Shown here in pieces: positions 223 through 34,927 of a DNA stretch of 64,000 bases. The stretch spans positions 38,153 through 102,152 of the forward strand of contig JADGKB010000048.1 of NCBI GenBank assembly GCA_027604185.1, written 5' to 3'. Both the position numbers and the translations under genes were made by a program. Source of the DNA: Boothiomyces macroporosus (lineage: Eukaryota; Chytridiomycota; Chytridiomycetes; Rhizophydiales; Terramycetaceae). Position 1 is the stretch's first letter; each line of letters opens with the position of its first letter. A model generated the notes under the pieces. That model was given only the letters and a program-made list of their open reading frames with translations. It was not told the origin of the DNA and made no database searches.

Positions 223-994
223 ATGGCTATTGACTTGCAGCCTCATAACCCAGAAGATTCCCAAGTTGATTTTAGTATTTTGGAAATATTGCAGAAATCC
301 AGTACCGCAATAAGAAAGGAAGTTGAAAGCAGGAAGAGAGTTGGTCAAAAGAAGAGACATAGAGCTGAAAATGACTCTTTTGCCTCTCACCCGTTTAAAC
401 CAAACAAGAACCCAAACTATATCGAAGAGCAAGATGAAAAACCAGGTTATCCTCCAGCAGGACCAAGTCCATTTATCAATATGGACTCTGATCTTTCTGA
501 TCAGGAAGAAACACAAGCAAGTGAAAAGAACCACAAAGCTGGTAAGCACTATTTAAATTAGGTCCGCATAATTTGACCAGAAACGACAGAAAGTTAAGAC
601 AACATGTCAGGAGATATTCATGCGACGAACCTTTACTTAAAGATTTTGAATATGAAATTAGAAGTTTCATCAAAAAATGTATTTACAAGGAAGAAGAATA
701 CGAACTGGACATGGATATATCCGATGTTGAAATTAATTCCAATAATTCGGAAGAATGGGTTTCATTGACTAGTGCGACTGTTGTAGATGGGTCGGAATTG
801 CATTTGAAAATCACAAATTCCTTCTTGCGACTTCTCGTCCACTCAATGTGTAGATACTACTGCGTTCCTTCTTCAAGTTAAAGTTATTTAATGTAGGCTA
901 TAATAAGGGAGATGATCGTGTGACTGTAATTAAGGCTCCCGATGACCAGTTTGAATTTCCTGATGTTTCTTTTACTGATTATTTTTTGCACTAA
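223..994 (+). CDS. R3H domain protein
   Basis: Exons are 223-541, 562-876 and 897-994, giving 243 aa; both introns are 20 nt. The N-terminal third is basic and charged (a KKRHRAEND stretch) and resembles the R3H-associated N-terminal domain found in some eukaryotic R3H proteins. The C-terminal part carries an R3H core with the Arg-x3-His signature in FLRLLVH, which straddles the second splice region. R3H domains bind single-stranded nucleic acids, so a role in RNA handling is likely but the exact target is unknown. The start is the first ATG after the upstream gene's end. The second intron rests on an in-frame join that continues the domain to a TAA; without it the frame would stop at 879. 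Confidence 0.8.
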
Positions 995-1046
995 TATAAT
1001 TCTTGTTTTAGTAAAGAATTTAGATTTGAATAAATCGAAATGTCGT

Positions 1047-2187
1047 ATGAATCTTGTTCTTTACCAATCGCGGCTAATTGGAGGAGATATATTGTCGTCT
1101 ATTAAGAGTAATCCCATGCTAGGTGTAGTCTCGAGCTCCACTATACCTGTAGCTTCCAAGCGTATGTGATCAGGAAGTAGACTACACACAAAGCCGTCTT
1201 GGTGATCAGGAAATTTTTGAAATGAAATCCGAGTCTACTTTTGAAATCAAGCTGTACGATTTATTAATGCAGGCATCCACTAGCCATTCTCAATATTTCC
1301 GATCACTACACTAGAATGTTACCGCAGAATAAGAGTGAGCGGGTAATTGGTGCGATATTAGGAAATCAAAACGGAAGGGAAATTGAAATCATGAATTCGT
1401 TTGAAATCCCTATAAATGCAAACACTGTAGACAAGGTCTTCTTTTTACAAAAGCAGGAACAATACAAGCAAGTATTCCCAAAGCTTGAATTCTTGGGTTG
1501 GTATTCAACAGGAGGAGACTTGGATGAAGCGGATAATCATATTCACAACCAAGTAAATCATTTTAATTTCAGTTCCTGGATGTTAACGAGTCGCCATTAT
1601 ATCTAAAACTTGATCCAAAAAGTAATACAAAGCAGCTGCCTATTAAAATTTATGAATCGTTCATTGAACCAAACAGCGGTGCAATTCAGTTATTAGAGTC
1701 TTCTTTTATCATTGAAACTGGGGAAGCGGAAAGGATTGCTGTTGATCATGTCGCGCATGTTTCAAACGAAAGTGAAAATGCCTGTATCTTTAGTTAATCT
1801 AGTGGTTGCTCATTTAAAGGGACAAAAGAGTGCCATTCAAATGCTGTATTCAAGAATATTAGTACTATTGGATTATGTGCAGGAAGTACAAAGAGGTACC
1901 AGGTGTTAACCAAGGCGTCCTCCCTAAAGATCACAATCTCTTGCGTCAAATTAGCAGCTTGCTTGCCCGCTTGCCTCTCATTCAAGACTCTGAATTTGAA
2001 CATGATTTCCAAAAAGATTTTAATGACGTTACTTTAATATTACACCTTGCTACCATTACCAAAAATACTGATTCCCTCAATGAAGTAAGCTAGACTAACC
2101 TAGTTGTTGGATAAAATCAAAGTGCTAAATTCAAAGAAAGGCAACAGTAGATGGCAAGGAAAAGAGCCAGCTTCTCATTTCCAATAA
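1047..2187 (+). CDS. CSN6: COP9 signalosome subunit 6 (CSN6)
   Basis: Exons are 1047-1161, 1181-1253, 1273-1552, 1573-1783, 1803-1895, 1915-2084 and 2104-2187, giving 341 aa. Introns are 19, 19, 20, 19, 19 and 19 nt. The MPN domain opens at HPLAILNISDHY and runs through GAILGNQNGREIEIMNSFE and the GWYSTGG stretch. The zinc-binding HxH motif of active JAMM proteases is absent, as is normal for CSN6. The C-terminal region follows the family to its end. CSN6 is a scaffold subunit of the complex that removes NEDD8 from cullins. The first exon is the weakest part: its intron lacks a clear TAAY branch site, and the ATG at 1222 is an alternative start (289 aa). The TAA lies inside an AATAAA at 2183-2188. 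Confidence 0.88.
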
Positions 2188-3606: not shown

Positions 3607-4247
3607 ATGGTTGTCAAAATCCAACAAAAAGCTCCTCACTTCAGCGCACAAGCCGTCGTCAATGGTGAATTCAAAGAAGTTTCTTTGGATGATTACAAGG
3701 GAAAATACTTGGTCTTGTTCTTCTACCCTTTGGACTGGACCTTTGTTTGCCCAACCGAAATCATCGCATTCAGCGAAAAAGCCGCCGAATTCAGAAAGAT
3801 TAACACTGAAGTAGTCGGTGTTTCCATCGATTCCAAATTCTCCCACTTCAACTGGATCAACCAACCAAGAAAGCAAGGTGGTCTCGGAGAAATGCACATC
3901 CCTCTCCTTGCCGATGTCACCAAGAAAATCTCTAGAGATTATGGTGTCTTGATTGAAGAAGGAGGTGATGCCGGTCTAGCTGCTCGCGGTACTTTTATCA
4001 TTGATGACAAACAAAATGTTCGTGTTGCTCAAATTAACGACTTGCCAATCGGCCGTAACATTGACGAAGTTTACCGTCTCGTTGAAGCTATCCAATTCCA
4101 TGCTCAACATGGTGAAGTTTGGTAAGAATCAAGTTAATAATAGCCCTGCTGGATGGAAAAAGGGTGCTCCAACCATGAAGGACAATCCAAAGGATTCAAA
4201 GGCTTACTTTGAAAAGGTATGGCGGCCCTAAAACTTAGGTTAACTAG
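3607..4247 (+). CDS. Typical 2-Cys peroxiredoxin
   Basis: Exons are 3607-4121, 4144-4216 and 4239-4247, giving 198 aa, the usual length for cytosolic Prx1/Prx2-type enzymes; both introns are 22 nt. The peroxidatic Cys48 lies in FVCPTE. The resolving Cys172 in EVCPAGW is created by the first splice, which joins TG to C. Both markers of peroxide-sensitive enzymes are present: GGLG, and a C-terminal YF. The enzyme reduces H2O2 and organic peroxides with thioredoxin as electron donor. The last exon encodes only Val-Asn; reading through that intron instead would end at 4231 with Trp-Arg-Pro. The start is the first ATG in frame with the domain. A CACGTG palindrome lies just upstream. Confidence 0.95.
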
Positions 4248-4432: not shown

Positions 4433-5965
4433 ATGGAAAGTGATCTATACCAGGAACAAATTAACTTGAGCAACTCCATTCATACAGAAGGTAGAAAGAA
4501 GCCATCGCCGTTCTACATTTGTATTCCAGGATTATTTTATGTCCTGGCAATGTCCATGACTTCTGGGATTATCCAACAATGGCTAATGCTGTATTTGTGT
4601 GCCAGATTTGACCATTTGAATATGTTGGAGGTTAATAATACAGCCATCTATCTGCCTGGATTTTACAATAGCCCAATCATACACAAAGATATGGATTGGA
4701 GCAAATGCAGGACGAATACAGATATTCAAGTACAGAGTACTAATATAGGTATTAGCCGTTCGATGGGTGATGATTATCAGAATATTTTCTGCATTGTCGA
4801 TTGTGGTTGGCCCTCTCTATGGATTTCTGTCTGATCGAATAGGACGAAAGCCCATAATTATCCTTGCACTTACGGCATCCCTGATTAGCTTCACAGCTTA
4901 TATCACTGTTGACTTGTATGGATATGGATTGTGGGTATTATTATTTGCATCATTTGTTGAAGGATGGTTAGGTGGAGTGATTGCGATAATGAATGCGACG
5001 ATCTCATACTTTGCTGATTGCTCCGAGGCAGAAGAAAGAGGTAAAACATTTATAGTTGGCGAAGCGATCTTGTTTGGAGGCATAGCTTTTGGTCCATTAA
5101 TTGGAGGCGCAATATTTAGAACTTTCGACAATGGCTCCCTTCTTGTGTTTTCCAGCTCCATAATCGTTGAACTACTTGTAATAACCTATGCAATCTTCTT
5201 TTTACCAGAGTCTTTGGATTTTGATCAAGTGCCAGAAAATGAAGTCAGTTCAATTTCAGACGTTATATCCTCCGCCGCCAACGTATTTACTAGAGCCAAA
5301 TCAACCTCGTTTATCATACTATTGGTTGTTCATGGAATAATGACACTGGCCCATTCATCCACTTTGTTTTTCCAGTTTGTTTCATTTAAATTTGGATGGG
5401 ATAGCCAAGATGAAGGTAACAAGAGTGTAATTCAGGGCAATATGTGCTCATTTCCGCTGTTAGTAGGATGGTTAACATGGGGCTGTTATACCCATTGATA
5501 CTAAAGATCTGCAAGACAGGCAGTCTCGTTGGGGTTGACAAAGTGAGATGGGATCTTTCCTTGATTAAAATAGGACTGGCCATTATTGTCTCTTCAACCA
5601 TTGGTAAAGCCATAACACCTGTTTCTGGTGTGCTTTACATCCTGACAGTTTTTGATGGGTTTGGAACTTTAGCTGGCCCAACTCTCCGGTCTTTAATTTC
5701 AATCTCAGTGCCATCTGGGTCGCAGGGAACATTATTCTCGGGCATTTCTTTTATGGACCAAATCATCTCTTTATTTGGTGGAATCCTCTATCCAAACATC
5801 TGGCAGTGGACTGTAAAGACATTTCCAGAGTGCTATTTCTTTGTGATGGCATTTTTTTACATTTTGGGGATTTCGCTCGTGTTCATTTTGGATCCAGCCA
5901 GAATTACGAGGGTTTCTGAAAGGGAAGAGTATGTAGGGCTTGAAGATTATATAGATTTGGAATAA
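4433..5965 (+). CDS. MFS transporter
   Basis: Exons are 4433-4729, 4749-5415 and 5436-5965, giving 497 aa with 19-nt and 20-nt introns. The splices join three reading frames into one polytopic protein with roughly twelve hydrophobic segments. The MFS loop 2-3 motif is clear (GFLSDRIGRKP). A long polar loop with Asn and Cys follows the first helix, as in SLC46-like and related fungal MFS carriers, so I favour that branch over sugar porters, without certainty. The substrate cannot be read from the sequence. The start is the ATG 32 bp after a TATA box; a 30-residue polar cytosolic tail precedes helix 1. The TAA stop sits inside AATAAA (5961-5966). Confidence 0.85.
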
Positions 5966-5982: not shown

Positions 5983-6084
5983 ATGGCGATTAATGATTTG
6001 ACACAATGGGTGAGCCTCTTTGTGCCGCCATCTGAAACACATCTTAAAAAGTACGCCAATTTGAGGTTCTCGCATAATCAATGA
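5983..6084 (+). CDS. Possible 33-aa upstream ORF overlapping the CH-protein start
   Basis: An ATG-started frame of 33 codons ends with a TGA that overlaps the ATG of the calponin-homology gene (the four bases ATGA at 6081-6084). It could be a regulatory upstream ORF or chance. No splice joins it in frame to the downstream gene, because a TAA precedes 6081 in the CH frame and no AG lies between. The copy is at 40819-40920. Confidence 0.3.
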   Translation: MAINDLTQWVSLFVPPSETHLKKYANLRFSHNQ

Positions 6085-7899
6085 ATCCTGTAGAATTATA
6101 TAAATATGATTTGAAATCGTCAATAATCAGAGAAACCGAGGCAAAGGAATGGATAGAAAGTGTTATTGGCGAAGCAATTGGCGAAGACTTGGCAACTGCT
6201 CTCAATGACGGTATAGTTCTATGCAAATTGTCAAACGCTTTACTTCCCGATAGCCCACCCATCAAATATGCAGTATCTGCTCTGCCGTTCAAGAAAATGG
6301 ACAATATTTCGAAATTCCTGAAGACTCTCCCCAGTTTGGGCCTTTCGTCATTTGAAACTTTTCAGACAGTTGACCTCTTTGAAAAGAAGAATATGAATCA
6401 AGTAATTGCTTCTAATCTAGGTGATTGACTGCCTCTTTGCCATTTCCAGAAATGCAGAAAAGAATGGCTTCCAAGGGCCATTAATCGGAAATAGACACTT
6501 GCGGTCCAGAAATTCAATGAACTCTACTATTTCCAATTCAAGCAGACATTCTGAGCCCTATGTGAACACAAAGTTATCCCAATGTGTAGATGCCCCAGAA
6601 TTGCAAGATTTACCAAATCGTGACAACTATGAAGAAGCTGGTCTTTCTGTTGTAGTTGAAACTAAAGATTCTGATTTAGATTCTTCAAATACTGTGGTGG
6701 AAGCTAATCACGACCTTGGGTATCAGAATCAGGATCCAATTATCGATGACAGTACAAAACAGGATGAGCCTTTGGAGACAGATATGCAAGAAAACAAATT
6801 AGAAACTGAAAACAAAGCTGTACTACTCTCCGAAACCAGTATTGAAGTTGAAGTGAATGGAGATATTGTTCAGAACAAGCATCTGCCGGATGACTTGGAA
6901 ACCAGTAAAGTCGAGGAGGTAAAAGCAAAACATGTGGAGCTTTCAATTGATACAACTGTACTGAAACCGATACACAAAGTGATAGCAGCAAATGTCAGCG
7001 ACTTTGTTCCACCAGTTACTACCACTCATACTGAAGAAGCTTTCTCCACTGATATACTCCAGCCTATTCCAATAAAGAGCCCGCCAAATTTGCAAATGAA
7101 TTTCGCTGTGGATGAACAGTTTGAAGACTCTCCAGACAGCTTAAATTATGTAGAAATGTTGGATGAAAGTAAATACTACCAAACTGATGATTACAATTGC
7201 TTTTCGCCAGCCAGAACTATAATGGAAACAATCGTAGAAGAAAGCGAATGTTCAACCCAGCTAACTACCACTGAAGACCTAAACAGCGAAGCACAATCGG
7301 AGGTAATGGACGAAAATCAACTGAATGGCATCTCAGGCAATGAGCCAGATCCCGAAAATGCGGTTGACCTGAATAACCAATTGCAAGACACCACAGTTAA
7401 CATTCCCCAAGAGCAAGAAACTATAAACACAGATATGGAACAACCCGACGATCAAAATAATGATTGCATAGACAATTTAGGAAAAGTAATCACGGAAAAA
7501 GTACCTGATATTGCTGTTGAAAATTTGTCACCTATTCCCGAAATTGAATCTAATACGGAAAGTGTAGAAAATCTGGGCCAGGATAAAGAATCGAACGAAG
7601 CTGCTCAGGAACCAAAGGTGCTGAACGAGTATCCTTCAAAAGAAGAAATTCGCGAAAAAATACTCAAAAGACAATCTTCAGCTCTCTCAATCTTTAGAGG
7701 ACCAAATGGAAATACAATAATTCCTGATTCACCAAATGATAAACTCACATTTAATCCTGAACTGGTTTTCTTGAAATTGGCGAATCTAGGATACAAGCAG
7801 AACTTTTACTGTTCAAATATTCACACAAAAGACACTTCAGTGGAAAATATCATCAATGTGACCAATGCAAAGCTACAGAACTTGGGGTATCGTTTCTAA
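6081..7899 (+). CDS. Calponin-homology domain protein with long acidic tail
   Basis: Exons are 6081-6401 and 6421-7899 (19-nt intron), giving 599 aa. Residues about 18-125 form a single type-3 CH domain, as in transgelin and calponin: the WIESVIGEAIG opening, DGIVLCKL, the FKKMDNISKFL helix, and NMNQVIDCLFAISR, which is created by the splice. Such domains bind actin. Residues 140-540 are acidic, Asn/Glu/Asp-rich and probably disordered. A short ordered segment closes the protein. It is much longer than transgelin (about 200 aa), so it is likely a cytoskeletal linker rather than a simple actin cross-linker. The TAA is followed directly by TAAA, making an AATAAA at 7898-7903. Confidence 0.85.
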
Positions 7900-7942: not shown

Positions 7943-10900
7943 ATGGTGAACAATGGACTGCATTATAAAATGCCAAATCATCCTAGTCTCTCTCCAATGA
8001 TTTTTGTAAGGAAACCAATAAAGAAAGATCGGAGTGCGGAATACGCAGCGATTTACCAACGAATCAAAGCAAGTTCAGGCATTGTCCTTATTTTGACAGG
8101 TGGCTGCTTCTAATTATAGTCGTAATCTACTATGCCATACAAACCCAAGTTTATTATTGGGGAGGAAAATCAGTTCAGGAAACTCCAAATGAATATCCTA
8201 CATTTCAGGAATACCCAACCTATTCTAAAGAGCAACAGAAATCAAATATTCGAGATATTTTCTCTAAATATGCATCTGCCAAAGACAGCCAACTGGATTC
8301 AGAAGAATTTAAAGGGGAATTGATGCACGCGATTGAAATGCTCGAGCGTTCTAACTTACCAAAATCGAAAATTGGGCAAAGAAAAGGTTCAAATTGCTAA
8401 TGCCTAGTACACCGAAATACACAATTATTTTCCAACGATTATTTAGCTGGTCGGATCGCAAATAATTTTGCCAATTTTGTTGTAACCATTTTTAAATACA
8501 TTCTGGTAGAGGTTCCAGAATACACTATTTTCAAAGAAGAAAAAGTTGATCATCCGTTAAAAAATGCAATGGAAGGATTTAAAGGGGTTGCCAAAACGAT
8601 GGGAGATATTTTCCTTGTTCCAGAAGAGGGCAAACCCGATGACAGCCTGTCATTTGAAAAACTTGGGACTGGAATCTCCAATCTCGCTTCAACCATAAAA
8701 GATAACCTGCTAGTAGGACTTCCAACCAAAAATACCGAAACTAAAGGAAAGAATTCCGAAAGCAGTCTCCCAACGCCTATTCTTCACACTCTTGATAAAG
8801 TAATCGAGTTTGGAAACACGATTGGAGATTTGCTGCTGGTAAAAGATCCCAAAACTGAAAAGGAGTACCACTCCAAGATAGAATCTTTTGTAGATGACCT
8901 CTTCAAATCATCAAATAACCAAGCATTTTCGAAAGTATTGTTTGCAACACAGTCAATTCTTGATTCATTTATGGACTCGATTTTGATCAAGAATGATGAC
9001 TCTAATAGTCGTTCGTCCACTAGCGAGAGTCCAGTCCGAAAATCTCTAAAGAACTTTGTTGATTATTCGTCCAACCTTGCAAGCTATGTATTGGTAAAGG
9101 ATAATGATGAAGCCAAATATGAAAGAGAAGCCCAAGAGATCTTTGGTCAAATTGCAAAATCTAAACTTGCGCCAGGAACACTAAATGAACTGCTAAAGGA
9201 AGTAATTGCGAAATTTGATGGCTTAGCGAGAGATATTCTTAATCCTACATCAGCAGGAGCTCTTGGTTCATCCAATTCTGAACCAAATGTATTTATCAAG
9301 ATTGCCAACCTTGTTGGGGATCAATTTTCAAATTACGTTTTAGTACCAAAAAGTAACACTGAAAAAACTGATGCTTCAGCCAAATATGACTCTGCTAGTA
9401 TTTACAAATTTGTTTCCGATGGAGTAAAGCAACTTTTGGTTGAGCCAGATGTTCAAGTCCACGAAAGTAAGCCAGTAGAACAATCACCAAAAAATGAAAA
9501 CATTGAGCAGATAAACAAATGGATTCAAGATTACTTGCTAAACAACGATTCCAATGGAGAAGGAAAAAGTCTGGACACTTTAAAAGAAAGTTTCAAACAT
9601 TTGATCAATGATGGACAAAAAGTGCTTGAAGATGTTCTCGTGCAATCAGAACAAATGCCGATCCTAAAGAATAGCGAGAAGGAAACACCCTCCCAAATAT
9701 TTGATGACACTGGGAGTAAAATTGCCGATTTTGTTCTTGCTGGTAGGGAATTGAAAGGAAATGAAAAGCAGCTCAGTTTTGATTATCAGCAATTGGCGAA
9801 AACTTTGTTTAGTGCTATTCAGAACAATTTATTGGTAGATGATAAAGAGCAAAGTAAGGGACCAGAAGCAGTGAGTAAAACTCCAAAAGGGATTTTTGAA
9901 GGAGAAATCGGAAAATACTTACGAGCGTACCTTTTGAATGGGGACAATTACATTTCGGCTGATAGCACGGAAAGTTTAGGATCTATAGCTCAAAAAGTCG
10001 TTTCTAAGAGTAACGTACTTATCAATGAAGTACTTGCTTCACAAGATGATGCATTAGGAACAACTGAAACAAAGAAGAATACTTTTCCGCAAGAAGAAAC
10101 CGCTAGAAGGATGACCACTCATTTCCTCAATAATGACGAGGGTGATCCTGGCTCATTGAAAATAACCGATTCAATTAAAGTCGAAGAGTTTGTTGATTCT
10201 ATGAAAAAATGGATCGATTCAAACTTGCTTGTTCAACCTGAATTAGATAGTGATGGGAAAAATGCAGCTTCAGCTAGTTCTAATTCAGAATGGCTCTTTG
10301 AGAATTATCTCGCACAATATCTTTTAAACAACGGAGAGTCTAAACAAAACTTGAATGGAAATTTAAAAGAATCCTTAATGAGAATATTATCAAACGGAAG
10401 CAAAGTTCTTGATTCAATCCTAGTACCAAATGTTGAAGAATCACCAGGCAATGAAGTTCCTGTTAACAAAGACAAGCAATCCGAAGGGTTCATGGATTTA
10501 GAAAATTCTCCTTTAGTGAAATTCCTTAACGACAATCTATTAAATAACGGACAGGAAGGAAAATCATTTTTCAATTCGATTTCATCTGTACTTGGAAAAT
10601 TGGAAACAAGTGCACCTGTTACCAAACTTGATAAAGTTGAAGAGAGCACCAAGACGTTGCAACAACTATTGAACCTTTACAATTCTGTAGATGATGAAAA
10701 TACAAAAGTAGAACTTTTGAAATTGATGGAGCGAGAAATGCACAAGATTGAAGAAACGTAACTACGACTAATATTAGAGACCCAGCCAATATTGAAAAGC
10801 CTCACGATTCTCAATCTGGGGTTTTAGCTGGATCGAAAGCTCTATTTGACAATATTTTGGTGGAGCCAACCACCAAAGGCACAGAATCTGGTTCTTGGTC

Positions 10901-11134
10901 AAACTTAGTGAATCAATTCTTGGTAACCGATGAACTTCCTAAAAAGCAGGTGATATGTCACTAATCCAAGTCATATTTGCCAATCATTAAAGACTTTTTC
11001 AAGAATATTATAGTTGCTACTGGCGATAACAGCGATTCTTCTGAAAAGGTTTAAATTCATTAATTTAGCAAGAGTATTTTGCTACTATAAAACAAGGATA
11101 TGAATGGCTTGAAAACAATATTCTTGTGAATTAA
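7943..11134 (+). CDS. Single-pass membrane protein with about 23 LLV-box repeats
   Basis: Exons are 7943-8099, 8120-8386, 8408-10757, 10778-10949, 10971-11048 and 11069-11134, giving 1029 aa; introns are 20, 21, 20, 21 and 20 nt. I do not recognise a family. One transmembrane helix lies at about residues 46-61 (GIVLILTVVIYYAI, completed by the first splice). The rest is a degenerate repeat of 30-50 residues. Each unit is an amphipathic helix ending in a box such as GDLLLVKD, DNLLVG, SYVLVKD, DYLLNND, DSILVPN or NNLLVDD. The last repeat (NNILVN) ends the protein. The intron at 8387-8407 is what ties the membrane segment to the long repeat exon. It is convergent with ECM29, with only 8 bp between stop codons. 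Confidence 0.8.
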
Positions 11135-11142: not shown

Positions 11143-14100
11143 TCAATCAAATAGATTATACGTGTTTTGCAACACCGATTGTATTGGCCCATCTCTTTCA
11201 TTTTCCGCATAAGGCTTCAATTGAGCTTTGATAAACGCTGTTAAAAGTGGATCTACATTAACCACGAATACCTTTTTTGCAGGTTTCGAACAGCAGGTTT
11301 GCAGCGAGTTCTCGAACAATTTTGAACTAATCGTTAGCACACAACTACTTTGCCGTCGTCCAAACACTGAAGCAACCCTTTTAGGATATCTCGCAACAAC
11401 CCATCGGAAAATTGGTTCAAGTTGCCTAATTTTTCAAACACTCTCTTCAATGCACCCAGTACACTAACTCGAATGTTCCATACATTATTGACCAAATTTC
11501 TTTCCAAAAATTGTCCAACTGGGGGAATATATTCACCTGGCATTAAATCAAGTATACCATTATTTGAAGAAGGGAAACATCCGCCGACAGCTTTAAATGC
11601 GCTTGCTCTAATGGAAAGAATGAGAGGCTTGCTGATACTTTCATCCACATCATCATCCATATCGACATCTTTCTCTTCTGCACAATTTGCTAAATACTCA
11701 AAGACGTCTCCGAATCGATGGCAATTTAGTTCATCAAACACTATTCCCATGTATTCGATACTAAATCTTTTGTATTGCATGTTCTTTTTTTGTGCTTCCC
11801 TGATGAATATTGCTTCAATCTTTCCAAGTTCTTCCTTGCGTGTGCCGAAATAATCCTTCCCAGCAATACAAACGCTCATCAACGCTTCTAACAATGCTTC
11901 TTTTCCAGACCAAGTTCTACCAGATAATGAATCTATCAGTAGTGCAAGACACGCCGGCATTATTTCCAGAATATCTGAATCAAGGGATTTTGAAAAATCA
12001 ACCAAAGCCTTCCCAACCTGTTTTTTCATATCCCAAGATGGATTGTTAACTAAAATTGATTTGCAGGATTCAAAAATCTCCAACTTCCATTTTTTAATTG
12101 CCAAGCTGGAACCTCCAGTATTTTCATCCCAGATATTTTTCCATACCTCTGAAATTGCTTGCTGACTTTTGTCACGACTACCCATAAAAGCCAAAGGAAT
12201 GATTAGTCCATGGAAATCTTGAATTGCGGACGGAGAATGTCTGGAAATTTCCAAATAAGTCACTGGGGCAACCATCCTACCCTCTTCATCATTTGCTTCT
12301 AAATACTTTGAATTAATTTGATTGATGATCTTTTCCAACACTGAAAACTCTACTAATTTCGCAAGGTAGCCAAACGCAGTAGAGAATGATTTTCGAACTA
12401 CCGGCGATCGATCATAAATTGCAACTGACAGTGCTTTGATTAACGGTTCAGAAACGGCTCTTAGTTCGTTTGGCACACTCTGGACTAAAGTATAGATGAA
12501 TCTTGCAGCACCTGCTCTAGTTGGCAGACCAACCCCTTTTCGTACAATGACCGCCAATTTAGGAGACAGTTCAGCAAGGATTTCAGCATCAATAAATGGC
12601 ACGCATCTATCAATCGCCTCCATAATGGGAGAGCTCTTTGCAGCAGTCATTCTTGACGTTTCTAAATCACTTTGACTGATATTGTACGACGAAGCGTGGA
12701 ATGCTAGATAATCTAATGTTAAAAATATCTACTCATTGATTGAGGCTCCAAGCTGCTAAGGGCTTCCATCAGTGTACATACCAACTCCACAATGTGTGGC
12801 TTTAATAGCACACCACCTGTCTTTGTCAATTTGAGAATAGTTGACAAAGAGTATGCCTTTACTTCTTCCGAGTTGTTTACTAAACCTTTTTGCAATAAGA
12901 AGGGCATCATTTCATTCATAATCTTCTGGCTCTTTGAAGGAGAGTGGTACACTGGATCGCAATAACGAACGGTAATGTTCATCAGAGTCTTTGCCGCCAA
13001 AAAGGCTGCTTTACGAACCGATTCTTTAATATCATCCAAAGCCCGAAAAGACATTGTCCACAATTCCGTCATAAACGGCTCCAACTGTTCAATCGTTTTG
13101 CCACTGAGTAAATCTGTAAGGGCAGCCGAGCTGGCTTCTCTTGTTCTCCACATTCTGTCTCCCATTCCCTTCAGAACTTCGTTCATGATTTCAACAAAAT
13201 ATTTGTCAATTGTTTTTGCTGGCTCTTTAACCAAAGAGTTCCAAATATTTTTCATTCCTGGGTTAATTATTCTTACCTTGCGCTGTCTTTGGATGTGGGT
13301 CAAATGAATAACGATAAAGTCTAGGAACAAGGGAAGGAAGAATAGGCTCTAAATCCTTTTCAGCCTGCATAGCAATTGAACTAAAACCTAAACTAGCCCC
13401 TCTTCTTGAGTTCCAGATTGCGTGGTGGGACGCAAGTGACATGAACTTGTACACCAAATCAGGTCTAAGATTAAAAGAGTGTTACTGATTCATATCAGCG
13501 GCCAAAGACAAGATATCTTGATATGTGCTAATGTTTGATCCATCTGGAGTTCCCCCAAGTGCGGCATTTGGCAGCAACTCTGTAGTTCCAGAAACACTCT
13601 GTGGAGCCAATTTCTTGCCAGCAGTAAAAGTAGATACTAGCGATGACACCAACTCTTTTTTCATATCTGCATCTCCAATTTCATAGATCAGCCCAATACC
13701 TTTGGAAGCAATTTCCTGAGTAAAGTCTAGATTAGAAGAGATTACCGTCTTTGTCATTCAACAAGTCGGAAAAGTTTTGATGAAGTTGAAGCAGATTTTT
13801 CTGAATGAATGGGGTGTTTTTTCCATACTTTGTGATACAGAGAAGCCAGATACAACCCGCCTTTTTGTTGATTGCGTTTTGAGCTGGTGCAACGAGAGCA
13901 AATATTTTGTTCATGTACTCTTCGAGTAGAGCTTCATTCACCTTGTAGGCCTGGAATTCATTTGGAGGAAATGTGACATCCGCAATATCAAGGTATCGAA
14001 GCATATTTAAAGAATGGAATTTGAAGAGTAAAGAGCAGAGCGCTTCCCCAATGTTAAATTGCAATTCGACGTGCTTTGCAAGAAGACTAGGCAATGTAAG

Positions 14101-18079: not shown

Positions 18080-18103
18080 TTTAATTTTTTTCAAAGATCT
18101 CGA
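18080..18103. promoter_or_regulatory. 24-bp bidirectional promoter between ArsC-like and Nup58 genes
   Basis: Only 24 bp, T-rich on the plus strand with an AAAGATCT stretch, separate the two divergent ATG codons. Core promoter elements of each gene must therefore overlap the other's 5' region or coding sequence. The copy is at 52916-52939. Confidence 0.55.
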
Positions 18104-19588
18104 ATGTTTGGTCAGCAAAATCAACAGACAGGATTTGGTCAACCTGCACAAAATACATTTGGATTTGGACAGCAAAATCAAAATACTGGTGCAGGAGGTA
18201 ACGCGACTTTAGGATTTGGAACTCAACCAGCGGGAGGCTTTGGAAATACTACCCAACCGACTGGAGGCTTTGGAAATACTACTAACCAACCTACTGGTGG
18301 ATTATTTGGAAATACCAATACAACAGCTCAACCAGCAGCAAAAGGGTTATTTGGCAACACTAGTACAACAACTGCGCAACCTACTACTGGCGGATTGTTT
18401 GGCAACACTGGTACCTCTCAACCTACTACTGGCGGGCTATTTGGAAACGCTACTACAAACACATCTCAGCCAGCAGCTGGAGGATTGTTTGGAAACACTA
18501 ATACCAGCACTACTCAACCGTCAAACATGTTTGGAAGTACTACCAACACTGCTGGAGGATTATTTGGTCAGAAAAGTACCACACAACCTGGATTTGGACA
18601 AGCCCAAACATCAGCGCCGTAATTATTAGACTAAAGTAGAATTACTCTGTCTACAAAATACTCTGAGCTTCCGCCGGATATTCAATCTCAATTGGATACA
18701 ATTGAAAAGTTCATCAACTCCCAATCTGGTGTTTCAACTTCTATTTCAAATCTCACGTTAGAAAAAGATTTACAAGAAATTGTAAAGGAAACTGAAGAGA
18801 CTTCCAGAGTACTACATCTTTAATGTAGAAATTAAGCGGATTAAAGACAATACTACAGAGAGATGTTTATGTCATTGATCAACTAAAGAGTCTAGTTGCA
18901 AAAGAACTCCGGAATACTGACTTGGTGGCGAGGTTCATTGAATCTTCTCCAACTAGCGACTTCAACAAAGGAATTCAAACCAATGACGCATATTCAAAGT
19001 AATTTTAGTCTTAAATTTAGTTACTTTCTCAACTTCACTAACGATCTTGAAATGCGCATGAATCAATGTAGACAAAATATCGAAGAACTGGAATTAAATC
19101 TACGAAGTTCGCATACTCCAAAGATCAATGCCACTGGTACTTTATCATTAAATCAAGTCATCCAAGAAATCATCAAGAATCAATACCAGTCGTTCATGTC
19201 TATTGCGGGTAAAGTAGCCCAAGTTCATGATACCATTACTAAAGCGAAAGATATTTATATTCAATTTCATGAAAAATACTATGGTAATGTTACTCCAGAA
19301 AATAATCGAGAATCATATTCACAACTTGCTCAGTATCTACAGCCTACAGTGCAACAACCTGTCCCACAACAGCTGAATCAATCTCAATTTGGACAATCAC
19401 AATTTGGAACACAGTCGCTCTTTGGAGCCAAACCAGCAGACACAAAGCCCGCCTTTGCGCTGTCTTCTAAACCAGCAACAGCTGCAGCTCCTACTTTGAA
19501 TACCAGTTTGTTTGGAAATCCAATTGGTGGAGTAGGAATGAAACGTAGTAATAGTTTAGGCGGAGCAGAGACAAAGAAACTGTTTTAA
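18104..19588 (+). CDS. NUP58: Nucleoporin Nup58 (FG nucleoporin)
   Basis: Exons are 18104-18618, 18640-18808, 18829-18998 and 19021-19588, giving 473 aa; introns are 21, 20 and 22 nt. Residues 1-172 form an FG domain built from repeated GGLFGN and GFGN units spaced by Thr/Gln/Pro. The middle part is the Nup58/Nup45 coiled coil, beginning with KYSELPPDIQ. It includes the family segment YFLNFTNDLE with QCRQNIEELE, restored by the third splice. A second FG patch (SQFGQSQFG, SLFGAKP) closes the protein. Nup58 forms the central channel trimer with Nup62 and Nup54. The start is the first ATG, 24 bp from the divergent gene. The TAA is followed by TAAA, giving an AATAAA at 19587-19592. Confidence 0.92.
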
Positions 19589-24083: not shown

Positions 24084-25244
24084 ATGAATTTTTCAGCAGC
24101 ACTATCTCAATATTACGGAGAATACTTGATTCTAACATTAATTGTACTCGCAGGATTGCCAATTACCGGTTTGTTGGGTGTAATTTTGAACTGGAAGCTG
24201 TCGCTGTCTTACAACCAGAAATCTGTCAGTAAAAAAGTACGAGGAAAGCACTGCTTGGTAACTGGTGCTTCCCAAGGGCTTGGAAAAGCCACTGCGATTG
24301 AATTGGTTAAAGCTGGGGCTCACGTAACCATTATTGCGAGAGGAAAGAAAGATCCAAAAACTGGCATATCCTCATTGGACTCTGTAGTAAAGGAATTGGA
24401 ATTGTCCAAAGTAAACCCAGATCAAATTATTCAGTTCTTTGCAGTAGACTTGACTGTATACGATAAAGTAGTAGAAATGTTTGAAAAGCTGTTTGAACAA
24501 GGACACAACCCAGAATTCTTGTTTTGCAATGCTGGATCAGCGACACCTGGATTATTCATTGACCAGTTACCGGTTCAAAACAAGGAAAAGTATGAAGAGG
24601 GCGAGCACGAATGGATGATGAAATCAAACTATTTCACTCATGTCAATGTAATCCGTGCATTGTTGCAAGTAGCTAGAAAGGGAGAATCAACTGAAGAAGA
24701 TTCTATTTGCGGGATATCTTCAAAGATAGCAATTAAATTGCCAAAATCTATCATTTTGGTTGGTAGCGTTCTTTCCACTCTGTCTTTTGTTGGATTTTCT
24801 GCCTATTCGGCAAGGTATTCCCAATTAATGATAGTAAATATGCAATCAGAGGATTTGCAGATGCAATGAGAAGCGAAATGAAACCATTAGGAGTACACGT
24901 TGGCATTTACTACCCAGGTAATATGGCAACTCCAGGTTTTGAAATAGAAAATGAAACCAAGCCAAAGATCACTGCCAAGATTGAAGGTTCAAGTGAAACC
25001 GTTTCTGCAAAGAGTGCAGCAGAGTCATTACTAGCTGGGTTTGACCGCAACTTGTTTTATTACTCTAACGACTTGTTGGGTGAATTGGCACGCGTATCTG
25101 TTAACGGTGGTAATCCAAGACCCTATCCTGTTGTCGAAGTAATATTATTTAACATAGATTTTGGCTACTCCTCTATTAGCTACCATTTTCACTGTTTGGG
25201 CTGCAATCACTGACATGGAAATCAAGTCATTCTACAAGAAATAA
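24084..25244 (+). CDS. 3-ketodihydrosphingosine reductase (KDSR/TSC10)
   Basis: Exons are 24084-24814, 24835-25138 and 25158-25244, giving 373 aa with 20-nt and 19-nt introns. An N-terminal transmembrane helix lies at about residues 12-36. The SDR cofactor motif TGASQGLG follows the helix, then the CNAG segment. The catalytic YSASK is built across the first splice (its Ser codon is split). The C-terminal exon adds a second hydrophobic stretch. The enzyme makes dihydrosphingosine in the ER, the second step of sphingolipid synthesis. The start is the first ATG of the membrane helix frame. The TAA is inside AATAAA (25240-25245). It is convergent with UNC119. Confidence 0.92.
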
Positions 25245-25301: not shown

Positions 25302-25924
25302 TTACACGTAAGAGTAGCTAGCTTTGTTTTGCAGTACCAACTTGTTGTCTATAAAATAAAACGAATCCGAAACAACATTTCCATCTCTAATCATTTCATT
25401 TTCTACATTAAATACAAAAACTTGTATCTACATCCAATTCCGGCATATCATAGACACTTTCCCATGTATTAACTGTATTCGGAATACAAAATCCAAAAGT
25501 AAAGTCGTACGATCTAAGCAGTTTATCTTTGAAATAGTGACGTTCAATCATTCTCAAGCTCTTGATTTCTTTTGGTCCGACTGCAAACACCAGTCTTGTT
25601 AATCAATATTACTTTGTTTGGATTTCTTTGGCGTCAAGGAAATCTTGAGGGAATTGATAAGATATTACTCGTGCTTCAGTTTCATTTGTATCATTGTCTT
25701 CCCATTGGATAGCGTCTGGTCGTTTGACATGAAACAATGTCTGGTTTTTCGTCTTGTTTTTGATTTGGAATTCAATAAACTAGGATTAAATAAGAATACC
25801 AAGAATGATTTGTAGCCTATATCAGAGCAGATGAACTGGGTTAGTAAGTAGTACGTCTGCGGTTGGTTTATTGAATCTAGATTAATAGATTGTACGATAA
25901 GACTGTTTCTGGCGTAATGTTCAT
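25302..25924 (-). CDS. UNC119 lipid-binding chaperone
   Basis: Six exons, 5' to 3': 25924-25896, 25876-25855, 25835-25800, 25779-25613, 25594-25422, 25402-25302, giving 175 aa. Introns are 19, 19, 20, 18 and 19 nt; the 18-nt one is the shortest in the window. The whole UNC119 fold is recovered only after splicing: NITPETVLSFNKPT, SYQFPQDFL, RMIERHYFKDKLL, FGFCIPN and SDSFYFIDNKLV. UNC119 extracts myristoylated proteins from membranes and releases them in cilia under ARL3 control. With the TMEM17-like gene it points to a ciliated organism. Exons of 29, 22 and 36 nt are unusually small. Confidence 0.93.
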
Positions 25925-29058: not shown

Positions 29059-31747
29059 TCAAAGCTGAACAAATTTAAAAATGCACAACAAAAAAATTGC
29101 TGACATGTCTAATTTCTCTCCTTTAAATCCCACCCATAATTGGGCAGTAAAGGAAGGGCAGACCACTTTCTCAACTAAATTGGAAACTTCTGCTTCATAT
29201 TTCTCCTTTAAATTATAAAGTTGAGTTTCTCCAGCAACAATCAGTTGTTGTTTACGCAGAATGCTCATATTTAATTTTGTAATCAACGAGTTTCGATCAA
29301 ATATATCCTTCTGCAACACTGTCTTTGCAATTTCACAGTCCTTAGTTATCTTTTTCATTCTATTTATCCTTTGTAGAAATACTTGCTGTTCTTTTTTCTG
29401 GTCTCTAACGCAATTTCGGATTTCCAATTCAAGATTATTGATTTTGGTCATTAAATCCTCTGTAATATTAACATACTTCTGTTCAATTTTCTCTGCTTCC
29501 ATTAGAACCTTGGTCAAAAGTACTTTCGGAGTATCTTGAAGTAACCTTAATTTTTCGACAGCCTTTTGCAGTGATTCGTTCAATAATCTGTTTTTCTCTT
29601 CTATTTTCTAGATATGAGTGCTTATCTACCGTTATATTATTTCTTTGCATCTCACATTTGTTTTTTAGAGAGGAAATCTTTTCAGCAGATTTATGCAGTT
29701 TAAGATCCTTTTCTATCACATTGCAACTGCTTTCATCAAGAGAGGCTTTCAAAGTTGCGGTTAATAAATTTAAGCCCTCAATTTTGCTTTCCAGTGTACA
29801 CTTGACATTGTCCAGTTCCTCCTTGTTGGCAATTTGTTGCAAACAAAAATATTTTTCTTTTTCAACCAAGTTTCCTTCTAACTGTAAAACTCTATTTGTT
29901 TGGTCACTCAGTTTTGATTTTAAATCTTCCACAACGCTTTTCATGTAATCTTTATCTTTTTGAGAAGCAGCAAGTTGTTTAACGGTGTTTTCCAGCTCCT
30001 TCTCCAATTTTTCATTCATCTTTTTTGATTCCTCCAGATTACAATTAATAGTGTTCAAGCAATCTTTCAAGTTTTCATACTCATTGTGTAGATCTTGCAA
30101 TTCTTCCAGTGTTTGAAATAATCTTAAACGAACATTGAAATAATGTTTCTTGAAGTGGTCTCTTTCAATTTTGAATCGGCTATTAGTATATTTTAATTGC
30201 TCAATCTTTTTGCGAAGTTTCGTATTGAATGACGCTGCTGTTGCTAGCTGTTTTTCTAAAGCTTGAATAACAAGTGCATATTCTCTCACTGTGTGTCTAC
30301 GATTAATAATTGTGCAATTGTTATTTGTTGCAATGTAGTCACATTTGTTGAACGAGCCATAGAAATTTTGGAGATCTGTCTTAAAAGTTGAAGCATCTGT
30401 AATAGAAACATTGATTTTCCCTCTGTATAACTCACATTTCTTTTGGTTAACTTTGCCAATAATAATTAATTTTCCAGTGGCAATTTGGACAGTTGCAGTC
30501 CATTCAGTCTCTTGCTCTGCATGAAGTATTTTTGGGGTGCAATCACTTGATTGTTGTGAAGTCATAATCTCGCAATTTGCGTCCAATGTATCAAGAGGGT
30601 GTTCTTCATGGATATTGAAAGTTGAAATATCTTCCATTGGGGTTTCAACTGTTAATCCCAATGAAATTAACCTTCCTGAGGGTTCCAAACTACTCTCACT
30701 CCTTATTTCTGTTTCATTTTCATTATCACTCATGGCCCCAACGTAATTCATATCCATTTCAATAGATGGTCTTGAGCTCTCTTCAGTTGTACAACCATCT
30801 GGAGGGAAAATACCTTTCTGATGTTCTTTGGCTGTCTCTATTTCTTTTTCAATGTCTTCTGATTCCATCAAAAGTGTATCAGATAGTTCAACATCTTGGT
30901 GGTATTCATAATCTTTCTGATCTGATTCTACATTATTCGTGTCTTCATTAATTTCCATGGCTAGTGTATCCGATTTGTTCTCTGAATGCCCAAATTCAGA
31001 TATTAGTTGAGCTTCATCATCAATCTCGTTTTCCTCAATTTGAGGTTCAGGAGATTCCAAATAATCACTTTCGTTGATATCAATTGGACTAGCAGCAGTT
31101 TCACCATTTTCATGACTAGTAGCATCATGTTCAGCAGTATCGCCAATTTCATAATAAGTGTCATTTTCATATTTGGTCAGGCTAGTTTCTTCAGTGGGAG
31201 TTAATTCAACCACGTCTTTTTCAGTGTCAAATTTATCGGCAGCAAATTCGCCATGGGTATCAGGGTTTTCATGTGCAATAATACTGGATACTTCAGAGGT
31301 ATCTTCATTTTCATCTTCCTTTTCAATCGATAAAGCACTGTAATCGGTGTCATTTGGGTGTTCATCCAAGATTTGGTCTTGATGATCAAAGTCATTTTCA
31401 TTTGCATCGTCTGAAACTTTTGCAATATTGCTATCACTAGTATAGTCAAAGTAGATGTCCAAGTTTGCCTCGGAGATTTTTTCTGGCTCTATGGTAGACT
31501 GTTCAGGTGGGTTCTTTTCTTCATTCACCCCTTTTAAATTGCCATCCAAAGTATTAGACGAGCCAAGAGTAGTATCAGAGTCTGCCGTAATCATTTGTTT
31601 TCTTTTCATAGTTAATTTTCCGTCTATATCAATTTATGCGGTACCATTAGTTATGGAATTGGTAATCAATTCAAGGAATGCAGAAGCAGGTCCAAGAATC
31701 CCCTTTTCTTTATGTTCATAGCCAAGTACACTAAGAATAGATTTCAT
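29059..31747 (-). CDS. Large acidic coiled-coil protein
   Basis: Exons, 5' to 3': 31747-31645, 31623-29630, 29607-29059, giving 881 aa with 21-nt and 22-nt introns. The first 34 residues (MKSILSVLGYEHKEKG) sit in a separate exon. Residues about 40-370 are strongly acidic and low in complexity. A compact segment with WTATVQIATGKLIIIGKV follows. From about residue 440 to the end it is a long coiled coil (EALVIQ-type heptads, then LQKAVEKLRLLQ after the last splice). No family is recognised; the plan resembles cytoskeletal, centrosomal or kinetochore scaffolds. It lies 37 bp downstream of NUF2 on the same strand. The last 20 residues may be altered if a further intron exists near 29110. Copy 2 is cut by the window end. 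Confidence 0.7.
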
Positions 31748-31784: not shown

Positions 31785-33207
31785 TTAGATCTTTGAAGCC
31801 TGAATAGTATTTTGGAAAGCTTCAATACCCAAAATCAAGTTATTATAGTGAAGGTTAAGTGAGTTAATTTCGCATTCAACAGTATTTTGGTAAGTTTCAG
31901 TCTGAATTAATATGAATTTACCTTTTCTTCATATTCTGCAGCCTGATTTTCATTTTCTTGGGCTTTGGCAACACTTGATTGATGCTGTCTTACTACTTCC
32001 TCATATTCCTCCTTAAGTTTGATAAATTTCTGTTCATTAGCAGACTCTCTTTGGCTATGGTGCTGTTCGAGTCTAACTATTTTCGAATTTGCACTTTCGA
32101 GTTGTCTAAGAAGTTGCTGTCATTAAGATGGTTTACCTGTTCTCTCATAGTCAATTCGCGCAACTCTTCCTGCTTTCTTTGTAAACTTTCTGCATCTTTT
32201 TGATAGCGAGCTTGTTCATCTCGTTTCTTTTTTCTTTCTTGTTCAGCTTCTAATAATAGATCGCAACAATTTTCAATGTCCTGCCAATTAGAAACATTTA
32301 CTGCTTCAACAGAATCCATAGTTTCAATACGCACCTGTAACTCTCTGCTCTTCTTTTCCGAAGCAGCGACATTCGCCTTTTCGATCTTGACTGATGCAAT
32401 CATATCATCTATTGCCAATTTCAGTTTTTCAGGATTAGTAATAATTCTAGATTGTAATCGGGCACATTCTTGCTTTAGATTGGTAATGAGAAAAGTGTTG
32501 TTGTTCATTTTCTCAGTCAATTGAGATTTCTCGAGCTTTAGAGCATCAATTTCACCACCAATATTGGTTTGGATCTTTTTCAATTCTCGCAAATCGGCAG
32601 TCAACAAGCTTACTACCTCCCTCTTTTTTTCCACCATAGGAGTTTCTGCTACTCTTGAAGCCCTATAATAAGCCATATCGTACTTGTAGGAATTAACCTT
32701 TTCGGTTAGATCATCCAATTTTGCTTGAAGGGATACTTTTTGATTGGCTAATGCCTCCTGAGATTAATTCGTGTTACAGCTTGTTCTGAGCACTGTTCAT
32801 ATATCTGCATTTTGTCCTCTCTAAATTTACAGAAATTAATAATTGCACTAAGAATATATCTAACACGCTTTACTGAAGGCGTCAACAAATCCCGCAAGCT
32901 AAAGTTTTCAACTCCCGCTTGAGTAACTATTTTCAACCTAAATTAATCAAAAGTACAATTGGCGATAGAATCCCATCAAAGCAATCGAATCTTGTTGAAG
33001 ATCTGGCGTTTCCAGAAGAGTGCTAAAGTCAGGTACTGCCAGATTTCTGGTTGAACCAAGCAGCAATTCCGTAAATTTTTCGTAAATTTGGAGCATCTTG
33101 TGCATCGTCGGTTTCTTTAGATCTTCTTCGGTGCATGGTATTGACAATTCTATCAGTATCTGCAAAATTTCCTTGGTGTCCAAGTTGGGAAATGTGAGTT
33201 CGCTCAT
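31785..33207 (-). CDS. NUF2: Kinetochore protein NUF2
   Basis: Exons, 5' to 3': 33207-32957, 32937-32778, 32757-32137, 32116-31922, 31901-31785, giving 447 aa, the family's usual length. Introns are 19, 20, 20 and 20 nt. The N-terminal calponin-like head carries the family pattern FPNLDTKEILQILIELSIP, then VENFSLRDLLTPSVKRVRYILSA-like residues across the first splice, followed by CKFREDK. The remainder is the coiled coil that pairs with NDC80. NUF2 is part of the NDC80 complex, which attaches kinetochores to microtubules. Only one copy lies in this window. Confidence 0.93.
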
Positions 33208-33610
33208 TTAGATTTAGAAAAAGTTCAACCTCCTGGACGAAAAATATTTACAAACGTCAAACAATATTAAGAAAAATGATCCGCTTTATTCAAGAATATG
33301 AATTCTAAATCCGCTTCTTTACCGTCCAGCTGGTATCTTGATTTCAAAGGAAAAACGCCGAAACTCCTTTCTTATGGATGTCTGGCATTTTCACAATTCT
33401 GGATAGGATGCACTTGGATTCCAGCAAGGAATAATTTCAACTTCATCTTATTGTATTGGAAAGTTCTGCTTGGTGATTTGAAAATTCCGATATAGTAGAT
33501 TTCATTCCAGCACAACCCCTCCAATTTCAATTCTGCAGCATGATTGTTCAATCTCCATCGGAATGATTCCGATTGAAGGGATAATAATTGAAACCCGCAA
33601 AAAAAAGTTT
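33208..33610. other. 403-bp stretch with unresolved coding potential
   Basis: A plus-strand ATG frame (33298-33495, 65 aa) has one possible 23-nt intron (33473-33495) that would add about 23 residues in another frame. On the minus strand a frame of about 75 codons (33390-33612) contains protein-like text such as WNEIYYIGIFKSPSRTF but lacks an ATG and hits a TAA. I cannot choose a model and recognise no family. It may be a small gene, a decayed gene, or the promoter region of phytochelatin synthase and NUF2. Confidence 0.3.
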
Positions 33611-34927
33611 ATGTTTAAAATTCTAAAGCGATTGCTAACCACAAATCCAATTCAAAATACTTTCTATCGAAGAGAACTTCCAAATGTAATCAGTATTGTT
33701 AATCCCAGAATTTATCTTCCTTCACATCGCTGCAAGGGAAGGAATTATTTAGAAAAGCGCTTGGAGAAGGATACGCTGAAATATTCTTTTCGTTATCTGG
33801 TAATTTTACAATGCAGAGTGAGCCAGCATTTTGCGGGTTAGGGTCATTGGCGATGGTATTGAATGCGCTATCAGTGGATCCTGGAAAGAGATGGAAGGGT
33901 GTTTGGAGATGGTATGCGGATGATATGTTGGAATGTTGTGCCTCTTTAGAAGATATTAAAAAAGATGGATTGAATTTTGTACAATTAGCAGCTACTGCTA
34001 GGGGAAATGGGTTAAATGTAGAAACAAAACGATTTGATCAAACCTCATACAATGAATTTATCCATGACTTGAAGAGGGTTACCAGCTCGTCAGATACACA
34101 CATGGTTGTATCTTTCAGCAGAAAGACTTTGAATCAGACTGGCGATGGTCATTTCTCTCCAATTGGGGCATATTGTGCCTCCAAGAACCAAGTTTTGGTT
34201 ATGGATACAGCCAGATTTAAATATCCCAGTTATTTTGTTGATGCAAGTCTATTATACAAAGCCATGGAGCCTGTTGATGGAACCACAGGATTACCGAGAG
34301 GATATTTCATACTTACCAGAGGTTATAACTCGATTGACAATAGGGGATTCTAAACCATTACCTCTCTGTAAAATATCCGCTCAGCGACTGGAATGGCAGG
34401 TGCTAACAAGATTATTTTGGCAAGTAATACCAGAAGAATTAAAGACAGAAAGCAATCCAATTAAAGCGATAATTAACAATATCCCCGACAAGCATAACTT
34501 CTACACGACTTTGGCTGACGGTGGTTTTGATTTAGCTGGGTCAGTTGATGGAAACAGACAATTAGCGGATGATCTAAAGAATGAATTTGAATCCCTTATG
34601 AACCAAGTGAAAAACCATGTAATGTACCATGCAGTTTGCGAAGCTTTGGCACCTTGTGAATCCACTTGCGAAAACAAAATTCATGTTCAACTAGGAAAGA
34701 ATTCAGTTGAACAATTGGCCACTCTATTTCTGCTGTCCTTGCCTCGAGAGCTCTTGACAAATTTTCCACAAGCGTCCTTTCAAACTATACAGAGCTTAAG
34801 GGCTGATAGTACTTTTCAGTCTCTGCCTCTGCTGAAGGAAGAAATATCAAGAATGTCTGGGCAATGGGATACCATGCTAACCTCTTATTGTATATGCGGG
34901 TCTAGTAGCTGCTCAAAATCAATATAA
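33611..34927 (+). CDS. Phytochelatin synthase
   Basis: Exons are 33611-33685, 33709-34321 and 34344-34927, giving 423 aa; introns are 23 and 22 nt. The papain-like catalytic domain is complete: Cys67 in SEPAFCG, His173 in GDGHFSPIG and Asp191 in LVMDTARF. The spacing is 106 and 18 residues, as in plant PCS1. KRWKGVWRW and the FYRRELP start are also typical. The C-terminal half is the variable phytochelatin C domain with several Cys pairs. The enzyme polymerises glutathione into phytochelatins that bind cadmium and arsenite. The start at 33611 gives a short N-terminus; an in-frame ATG at 33563 is possible. The gene crosses the repeat-unit join without any change. Confidence 0.95.

Follow-up and report, generated by a model that had tools for sequence, protein, structure and literature searches.

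Evidence for pervasive U2-type introns of about 20 nucleotides in the chytrid fungus Boothiomyces macroporosus

Introns close to 20 nucleotides (nt) in length are on record from a few lineages. The introns of chlorarachniophyte nucleomorphs are 18-21 bp long (PMC10245619), and those of the heterotrich Stentor coeruleus are 15-16 nt long with the branch A at position 10-11; for Stentor, all small nuclear RNAs (snRNAs) were reported present, Slu7 and Prp18 were reported as not found, the Cwc25 glycine plug as missing, and the Isy1 N-terminus as non-conserved (PMC9505925). Mikrocytids have introns of 16-17 nt, with 17-19 spliceosomal proteins identified and 224 introns predicted in Mikrocytos mackini (PMC10245619). 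The microsporidian Encephalitozoon cuniculi has 37 introns of 22-76 nt (PMC3629993), and the ultra-short introns of Paramecium and Nyctotherus are about 25 bp (PMC5014332). The size class is not reported in the relevant section of an analysis of 644 fungal genomes (PMC8476143), and no description of such introns in chytrids was found in the literature searched, subscription papers and preprints being mostly outside its reach. Here, I analyzed a 64,000-nucleotide stretch (the window) of contig JADGKB010000048.1 of Boothiomyces macroporosus (Terramycetaceae, Rhizophydiales, Chytridiomycota), whose assembly comprises 15.2 Mb in 216 contigs. An original prediction, made from the letters of this stretch, held that nearly all of its introns are only 18-23 nt long, and a frame test, a gene model, and homologous proteins bear this out. 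The introns are real, of the U2 type, pervasive in the sampled DNA, and unusual for a fungus.

I performed gene modeling on 23 stretches totaling 241,220 bases, or about 1.6% of the genome, with 167.6 kb called as coding sequence. The model was unsupervised and iterative, starting from a flat intron length of 10-200 nt and no site model. Of the 84 introns of the first pass, 34 measured 19-23 nt, and the converged model called 230 introns in the 241 kb, of which 222 are 19-25 nt long with a peak at 20 (47 of 19 nt, 98 of 20, 48 of 21, 24 of 22, four of 23, and one of 25). Thus, nearly all introns of the sample lie below about 25 nt and within a narrow range. At least one intron is present in 93 of the 158 called genes. 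As for their location, the 34.8 kb of independent sequence in the window (a 29-kb repeat is counted once in the gene-model and final counts) holds 30 of the 222 tiny introns, and the remaining 206.4 kb holds 192. Extrapolation from the sample gives about 14,000 tiny introns per genome, which is probably an underestimate because introns whose length is a multiple of three and which lack a stop codon are missed. When decoys were given to the model, no introns were called in reversed DNA or in DNA from which the called introns had been excised, and letter-shuffling of the introns left 16 calls of 18-23 nt versus 221 in the real DNA. Even before a site model existed, a branch box was found in 27 of the 34 first-pass calls of 19-23 nt versus 118 of 780 GT-AG 20-mers at large.

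A segment was counted in the frame test if taking it out connected two open reads, each 60 codons or longer, and if the read that kept it ran into a stop; the test covered both strands of 234.8 kb of unique DNA and 96 boundary-dinucleotide pairs. At 19, 20, 22, and 23 nt, 209 GT-AG segments were observed versus 109 expected from longer lengths (a ratio of 1.92), the best ratio among the other 95 pairs being 1.21. At 21 nt, 34 GT-AG segments were observed versus 11.8 expected. GT-AG is the sole pair of the 96 that goes beyond chance, as is expected of U2-type introns, and GT-AG segments of 12-18 nt did not rise above background in this DNA. The lengths, the GT-AG ends, the branch-like box, and the density of the introns are confirmed as real.

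The consensus of the 222 tiny introns is GT-AG with mostly a GTA donor, a YTAAY-like box, and mostly a YAG acceptor, in keeping with the motifs that had been predicted. The donor is GTA in 203 of the 222, a G stands at +5 in only 56 of the 222, and the acceptors are TAG (164), CAG (39), AAG (17), and GAG (2), so that TAG or CAG accounts for 203. A branch box above the score limit was found in 218. Its A lies at intron position 14 (93 introns), 15 (79), or 16 (26), that is, in 198 of the 218 scored introns; six others lie at positions 17-19, and 14 calls at positions 7-12 are probably misassigned. No branch A was placed at position 13 and one was placed at 12. The tail after the branch A is 5 nt in 103 introns and 6 nt in 94 (197 of 218), a set distance, as in U2-type introns. 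The layout is highly uniform: 46 of 47 introns of 19 nt are 14 + 5, and 89 of 95 scored introns of 20 nt are 14 + 6 or 15 + 5. In an 18-nt intron of UNC119, the branch A stays at 14 and the tail is shorter, as judged by eye. Read together with the branch positions, the length scan suggests a floor near 19 nt. The original prediction was right about the GTA start and the branch-like box, while the spacing before the branch base came out slightly larger than its 11-13 nt, at 13-15 nt.

How does Boothiomyces compare with the known systems? It resembles the nucleomorphs in length range and narrow distribution. However, a nucleomorph is the relict nucleus of an endosymbiont and carries more than 800 introns in some 300 genes, whereas Boothiomyces has an ordinary fungal assembly and the far larger number extrapolated above. 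It shares with Stentor the GTA start, the fixed branch A, and the 5-nt tail, but the branch A lies at 14-16 instead of 10-11, and Slu7, Prp18, and the Cwc25 glycine plug, undetected or missing in Stentor, are present or canonical in Boothiomyces. Mikrocytid introns, which the original prediction had not listed, are likewise numerous, uniform, and tiny (16-17 nt; PMC10245619), but mikrocytids are parasites with a reduced spliceosome. E. cuniculi is a fungal relative with GT-AG introns and strict motifs, differing in its wider length range, reduced spliceosome, and intracellular parasitism. Paramecium and Nyctotherus have short introns genome-wide and are not reduced parasites, but their introns are longer and they are ciliates. 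The earlier interpretation, that numerous spliceosomal introns of nucleomorph or Stentor size occur in an ordinary nuclear genome, is supported, except that this flagellated organism had been taken for a ciliated one and is a zoosporic chytrid fungus.

In the unique 34.8 kb of the window, 40 introns were placed in 12 genes: one of 18 nt, 15 of 19, 14 of 20, five of 21, and five of 22. The strict model called 30 of them, a relaxed model seven, and protein mapping or inspection by eye three. They are as follows, with positions counted from the first letter of the window.

542..561, plus strand: 20-nt intron, R3H-like gene 223-994; strict model
877..896, plus strand: 20-nt intron, R3H-like gene 223-994; strict model
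1254..1272, plus strand: 19-nt intron, CSN6-like (COP9 signalosome subunit 6); strict model and CSN6 alignment
1553..1572, plus strand: 20-nt intron, CSN6-like; strict model and CSN6 alignment
1784..1802, plus strand: 19-nt intron, CSN6-like; strict model and CSN6 alignment, one additional homolog residue nearby
1896..1914, plus strand: 19-nt intron, CSN6-like; relaxed model only
2085..2103, plus strand: 19-nt intron, CSN6-like; relaxed model only
4122..4143, plus strand: 22-nt intron, 2-Cys peroxiredoxin (AhpC-TSA match); relaxed model and sequence
5416..5435, plus strand: 20-nt intron, MFS transporter; strict model and family match
6402..6420, plus strand: 19-nt intron, gene 6081-7899; strict model
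10758..10777, plus strand: 20-nt intron, gene 8569-11054; strict model
10950..10970, plus strand: 21-nt intron, gene 8569-11054; strict model
12713..12732, minus strand: 20-nt intron, ECM29; strict model, homologs, NCBI model
13258..13276, minus strand: 19-nt intron, ECM29; strict model, homologs, NCBI model
13465..13485, minus strand: 21-nt intron, ECM29; strict model, homologs, NCBI model
13727..13745, minus strand: 19-nt intron, ECM29; strict model, homologs, NCBI model
14479..14499, minus strand: 21-nt intron, ECM29; strict model, homologs, NCBI model
14656..14674, minus strand: 19-nt intron, ECM29; strict model, homologs, NCBI model
14779..14797, minus strand: 19-nt intron, ECM29; strict model, homologs, NCBI model
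15497..15516, minus strand: 20-nt intron, ECM29; strict model, homologs, NCBI model
15844..15865, minus strand: 22-nt intron, ECM29, stretch variable in distant homologs; strict model, homologs, NCBI model
16222..16241, minus strand: 20-nt intron, ECM29, stretch variable in distant homologs; strict model, homologs, NCBI model
16487..16505, minus strand: 19-nt intron, ECM29; NCBI model P0121 mapped exactly, missed by the strict model
16796..16817, minus strand: 22-nt intron, ECM29 first codons; start of P0121 read against the DNA
18619..18639, plus strand: 21-nt intron, gene 18104-19588 (FG-repeat protein, by eye); strict model
18809..18828, plus strand: 20-nt intron, gene 18104-19588; strict model
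18999..19020, plus strand: 22-nt intron, gene 18104-19588; strict model
24815..24834, plus strand: 20-nt intron, 3-dehydrosphinganine reductase (KDSR); strict model, spliced identically in the congener's NCBI protein P0001
25139..25157, plus strand: 19-nt intron, KDSR; strict model, P0002 and P0003 continue across, P0001 splices elsewhere
25403..25421, minus strand: 19-nt intron, UNC119; strict model and UNC119A alignment
25595..25612, minus strand: 18-nt intron GTAATATTGATTAACAAG, UNC119, the shortest placed; by eye and UNC119A alignment, not called by the model
25780..25799, minus strand: 20-nt intron, UNC119; relaxed model and UNC119A alignment
25836..25854, minus strand: 19-nt intron, UNC119; relaxed model and UNC119A alignment
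25877..25895, minus strand: 19-nt intron, UNC119; relaxed model and UNC119A alignment
29608..29629, minus strand: 22-nt intron, gene 29059-31747 (coiled coil, by eye); strict model
31624..31644, minus strand: 21-nt intron, gene 29059-31747; relaxed model only
31902..31921, minus strand: 20-nt intron, NUF2; strict model, spliced protein matches Nuf2 families
32117..32136, minus strand: 20-nt intron, NUF2; strict model, Nuf2 family match
32758..32777, minus strand: 20-nt intron, NUF2; strict model, Nuf2 family match
32938..32956, minus strand: 19-nt intron, NUF2; strict model, Nuf2 family match
34837..64000, plus strand: near-identical second copy of window 1-29164 (offset 34,836; 8 mismatches in 29164), in which the features recur at +34836

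Tiny introns had been predicted for the same stretch at 50 in 13 genes, ten more than were placed here; that count came without coordinates, so the comparison is one of totals. For ECM29, 12 introns were placed where 14 had been claimed, and for UNC119 both counts give five. The R3H match of gene 223-994 (26.7 bits) is just below the 26.8 cut-off. The eight mismatches of this direct repeat are all confined to 16262-18319, and its second copy extends to the window end. At the DNA level, ECM29 matched the genome in these two repeat copies only. A tandem duplication could account for the repeat, as could an assembly that is circular or looped, or the merging of haplotypes. At 19788-21435, the window also encodes two adjacent similar small proteins with an MKFT start, a signal-like start, and a common LLAHTN segment.

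For ECM29, UNC119, the CSN6-like gene, and KDSR, homologous proteins back the junctions. The window ECM29 is NCBI protein HK103_005242 of B. macroporosus (100% identity), and the deposited model already contains its introns, a refinement of the earlier interpretation: it holds the 10 strict-model introns, 16487-16505 (exactly), and 16796-16817 (its first residues read against the DNA). P0122, a congener's ECM29 model (85% identical), is continuous at all 10 strict-model junctions with no leftover residues, and those of Globomyces, Lobulomyces, Haplosporangium, and Chlamydoabsidia are continuous at most of them. The spliced UNC119, with introns of 19, 19, 20, 18, and 19 nt, aligns with UNC119A (PDB 5l7k, 141 bits) without gaps at the junctions, and the spliced CSN6-like protein aligns along CSN6 chains. 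In the peroxiredoxin, excising 4122-4143 restores the motif GEVCPAGWK.

Several observations weigh against so uniform a picture. First-pass calls of other lengths were also rich in the box (19 of 50, above background), perhaps since some of them end at a true tiny acceptor. Eight of the 230 converged calls lie above the tiny range, at 44-144 nt. Judged by eye, those of 118, 135, 138, and 144 nt finish in a tiny-intron-like unit, and that of 47 nt possibly does too; since four of the eight thus resemble merged tiny introns or calls with a wrong donor, and possibly a fifth, a second class of longer introns was not adopted, and rare longer introns may exist besides the tiny class. Introns of 21 nt without a stop are nearly invisible to the model, which recovered 13 of 206 such test cases versus 295 of 301 with a stop. 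Thus, the 21-nt class is under-counted, and probably the 18-nt class too. An in-frame stop is present in 45 of the 48 called 21-nt introns, an excess confounded by this blindness, and no inference of Paramecium-like selection against translatable introns was drawn from it. A site-matrix scan inside exons (score of at least 12) gave 10 sense candidates of 21 nt versus 0-5 at each other sense length between 16 and 27 nt; on the antisense strand, there were 4 at 21 nt in a range of 0-7. No intron was called in Prp18 or in one tubulin model. In addition to introns of 20 and 19 nt, the Isy1 model has two doubtful calls, one of 49 and one of 189 nt; the 189-nt call engulfs residues present in the congener's NCBI protein P0133, and the 49-nt call, its first intron, contains by eye two consecutive tiny-intron-like units of 20 and 18 nt. 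The first Isy1 exon is uncertain.

Among the homologs, too, some details disagree. Two ECM29 junctions, after model residues 79 and 198, fall in variable sequence, with small indels in the distant homologs. P0123, the ECM29 model of Terramyces, is non-contiguous at four of the 10 junctions and lacks five blocks of at least seven residues; three of these five gaps have an edge no more than two residues away from an intron position of Boothiomyces, which hints weakly that Terramyces has the introns too. CSN6 homologs have one additional residue near the third junction. At the second tiny intron, P0001, from Boothiomyces sp. JEL0838, joins KDSR to sequence lying downstream; annotators should be warned that merged exons at tiny introns exist in this deposited model. 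The NCBI models, those of congeners included, may be computational as well, so that agreement with them is not fully independent.

Even so, the segments are almost certainly ordinary U2-type spliceosomal introns shrunk near the minimum size. The DNA anatomy, the continuity of frames and proteins, and the presence of the snRNA and protein genes named below are established; splicing in RNA, the branch base itself, and snRNA pairing are inferred. The spliceosome searches covered U1, U2, U6, SF1, U2AF-large, Slu7, Prp18, Cwc25, and Isy1. U6 has ACAGAGA; U2 has two copies, and the copy read has GTAGTA; U1 carries ATACTTACCTG and scored 68.8 bits, just under the gathering score of 69.5. The recognition sequences of U1, U2, and U6 are thus canonical, as for U2-type splicing. 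The genes for SF1, Slu7, Prp18, Cwc25, and Isy1 were found, as was a U2AF-large-like protein, the best of 25 matches at 230.7 bits and below the family cut-off of 310.3. The Slu7, SF1, U2AF-large-like, and Cwc25 gene models themselves contain introns of 19-24 nt. In the proposed mechanism, U1 (5′ end AUACUUACCUG) and U6 would read the donor, and U2 (GUAGUA) would read the YTAAY-like box; branching would give a lariat loop mostly of 14-16 nt plus a tail of 5-6 nt that has the acceptor AG at its end, with the length variation residing mostly in the donor-to-branch spacer. As for the surroundings of the U6 gene, a gene for a predicted secreted protein occurs beside it as an inverted repeat (1-500 versus about 900-1400 of locus L003), followed by a CYP51-like P450, both as judged by eye. 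The 5.8S rRNA had no match in the genome search, and the rDNA may be absent from the assembly.

Did the tiny introns need a remodeled branching or second-step apparatus, as proposed for Stentor? In favor of this, the predicted Isy1 start, MAPKTLAQKQEANILKK, is the same in P0133 and departs from the usual M-A/S-R-N-x-E/D-K-A, to which the mushroom protein P0138 conforms (MARNEEKA). The Isy1 of Gorgonomyces (P0141), presumably a chytrid, likewise lacks the usual start, so this may be a lineage trait, and the odd 49-nt call in the first Isy1 intron also detracts from the argument, even if the Isy1 N-terminus is non-conserved in Stentor too (PMC9505925). The N-terminus of Cwc25 (MGGGDLNLKKSWHP) is canonical, which rules out a Stentor-like remodeling of that factor. 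Its first 14 residues are identical to PDB chain 5yzg_X, which I take to be the human protein. In yeast, Slu7 and Prp18 are needed mainly at longer branch-acceptor distances; since both are present here, a loss of second-step factors owing to the distance of 5-6 nt is ruled out as well. With none of the three Stentor-type changes (Slu7 and Prp18 undetected, Cwc25 GGG plug lost), remodeling seems improbable. The Cwc25 locus was predicted identically on two contigs (C49 and C100; loci L037 and L038), which suggests unmerged haplotypes or duplicated contigs.

Removal without the major spliceosome, by U12-type, tRNA-type, or bypass elements or by DNA elimination, has in its favor a size far under that of usual fungal introns and the scarcity of G at +5, but it is scarcely credible given the branch box and YAG, which fit U2-type signals, and the canonical U1, U2, and U6 sequences; as for the U12-type RTATCC donor and TTCCTTAAC-like branch, GTATCC donors occurred in 0 of 222 and CCTTAA in 1 of 222 (the model took no AT-AC donors, and the RNA searches did not extend to the minor spliceosome). 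Assembly indels or pseudogenes mimicking frame-restoring gaps can be dismissed for practical purposes: the near-identical repeat means that the assembly here is not faultless, but the excess is confined to GT-AG and to 19-23 nt, the segments have a common branch box, proteins are conserved on both sides of the junctions, and 192 of the 222 lie outside the window, so no local fault is responsible.

The reading as ordinary U2-type introns therefore stands, and, as far as searched, the machinery looks near-standard; by these tests, introns of about 20 nt are within the capacity of a fungal spliceosome that is not reduced. A further step is possible, though I rate it as rather doubtful: in a free-living fungus, essentially all introns, perhaps 14,000 of them, would have come down to the smallest size processable by an unmodified spliceosome, in the first such genome described in Fungi. 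In that case, the sharp floor (branch A at 14; introns of 19 nt, apart from a single one of 18) would gauge how small a lariat loop can be when Cwc25 is canonical and Slu7 and Prp18 are present, and getting down to the 10 of Stentor would take an altered active-site plug and the loss of second-step factors. Boothiomyces macroporosus is presumably saprobic. The tiny-intron genomes found on record, as far as the sources cited above go, are those of ciliates, a relict nucleus, and reduced parasites, and small size there accompanies odd or reduced spliceosomes. Boothiomyces pairs a lariat loop of about 14 nt with mostly canonical branching and second-step factors among those tested, which separates intron size from spliceosome reduction. 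Since the genus is named in a culture-collection paper (PMC7537106), experiments should be possible, and they would allow a direct test of the smallest lariat that a canonical spliceosome makes.

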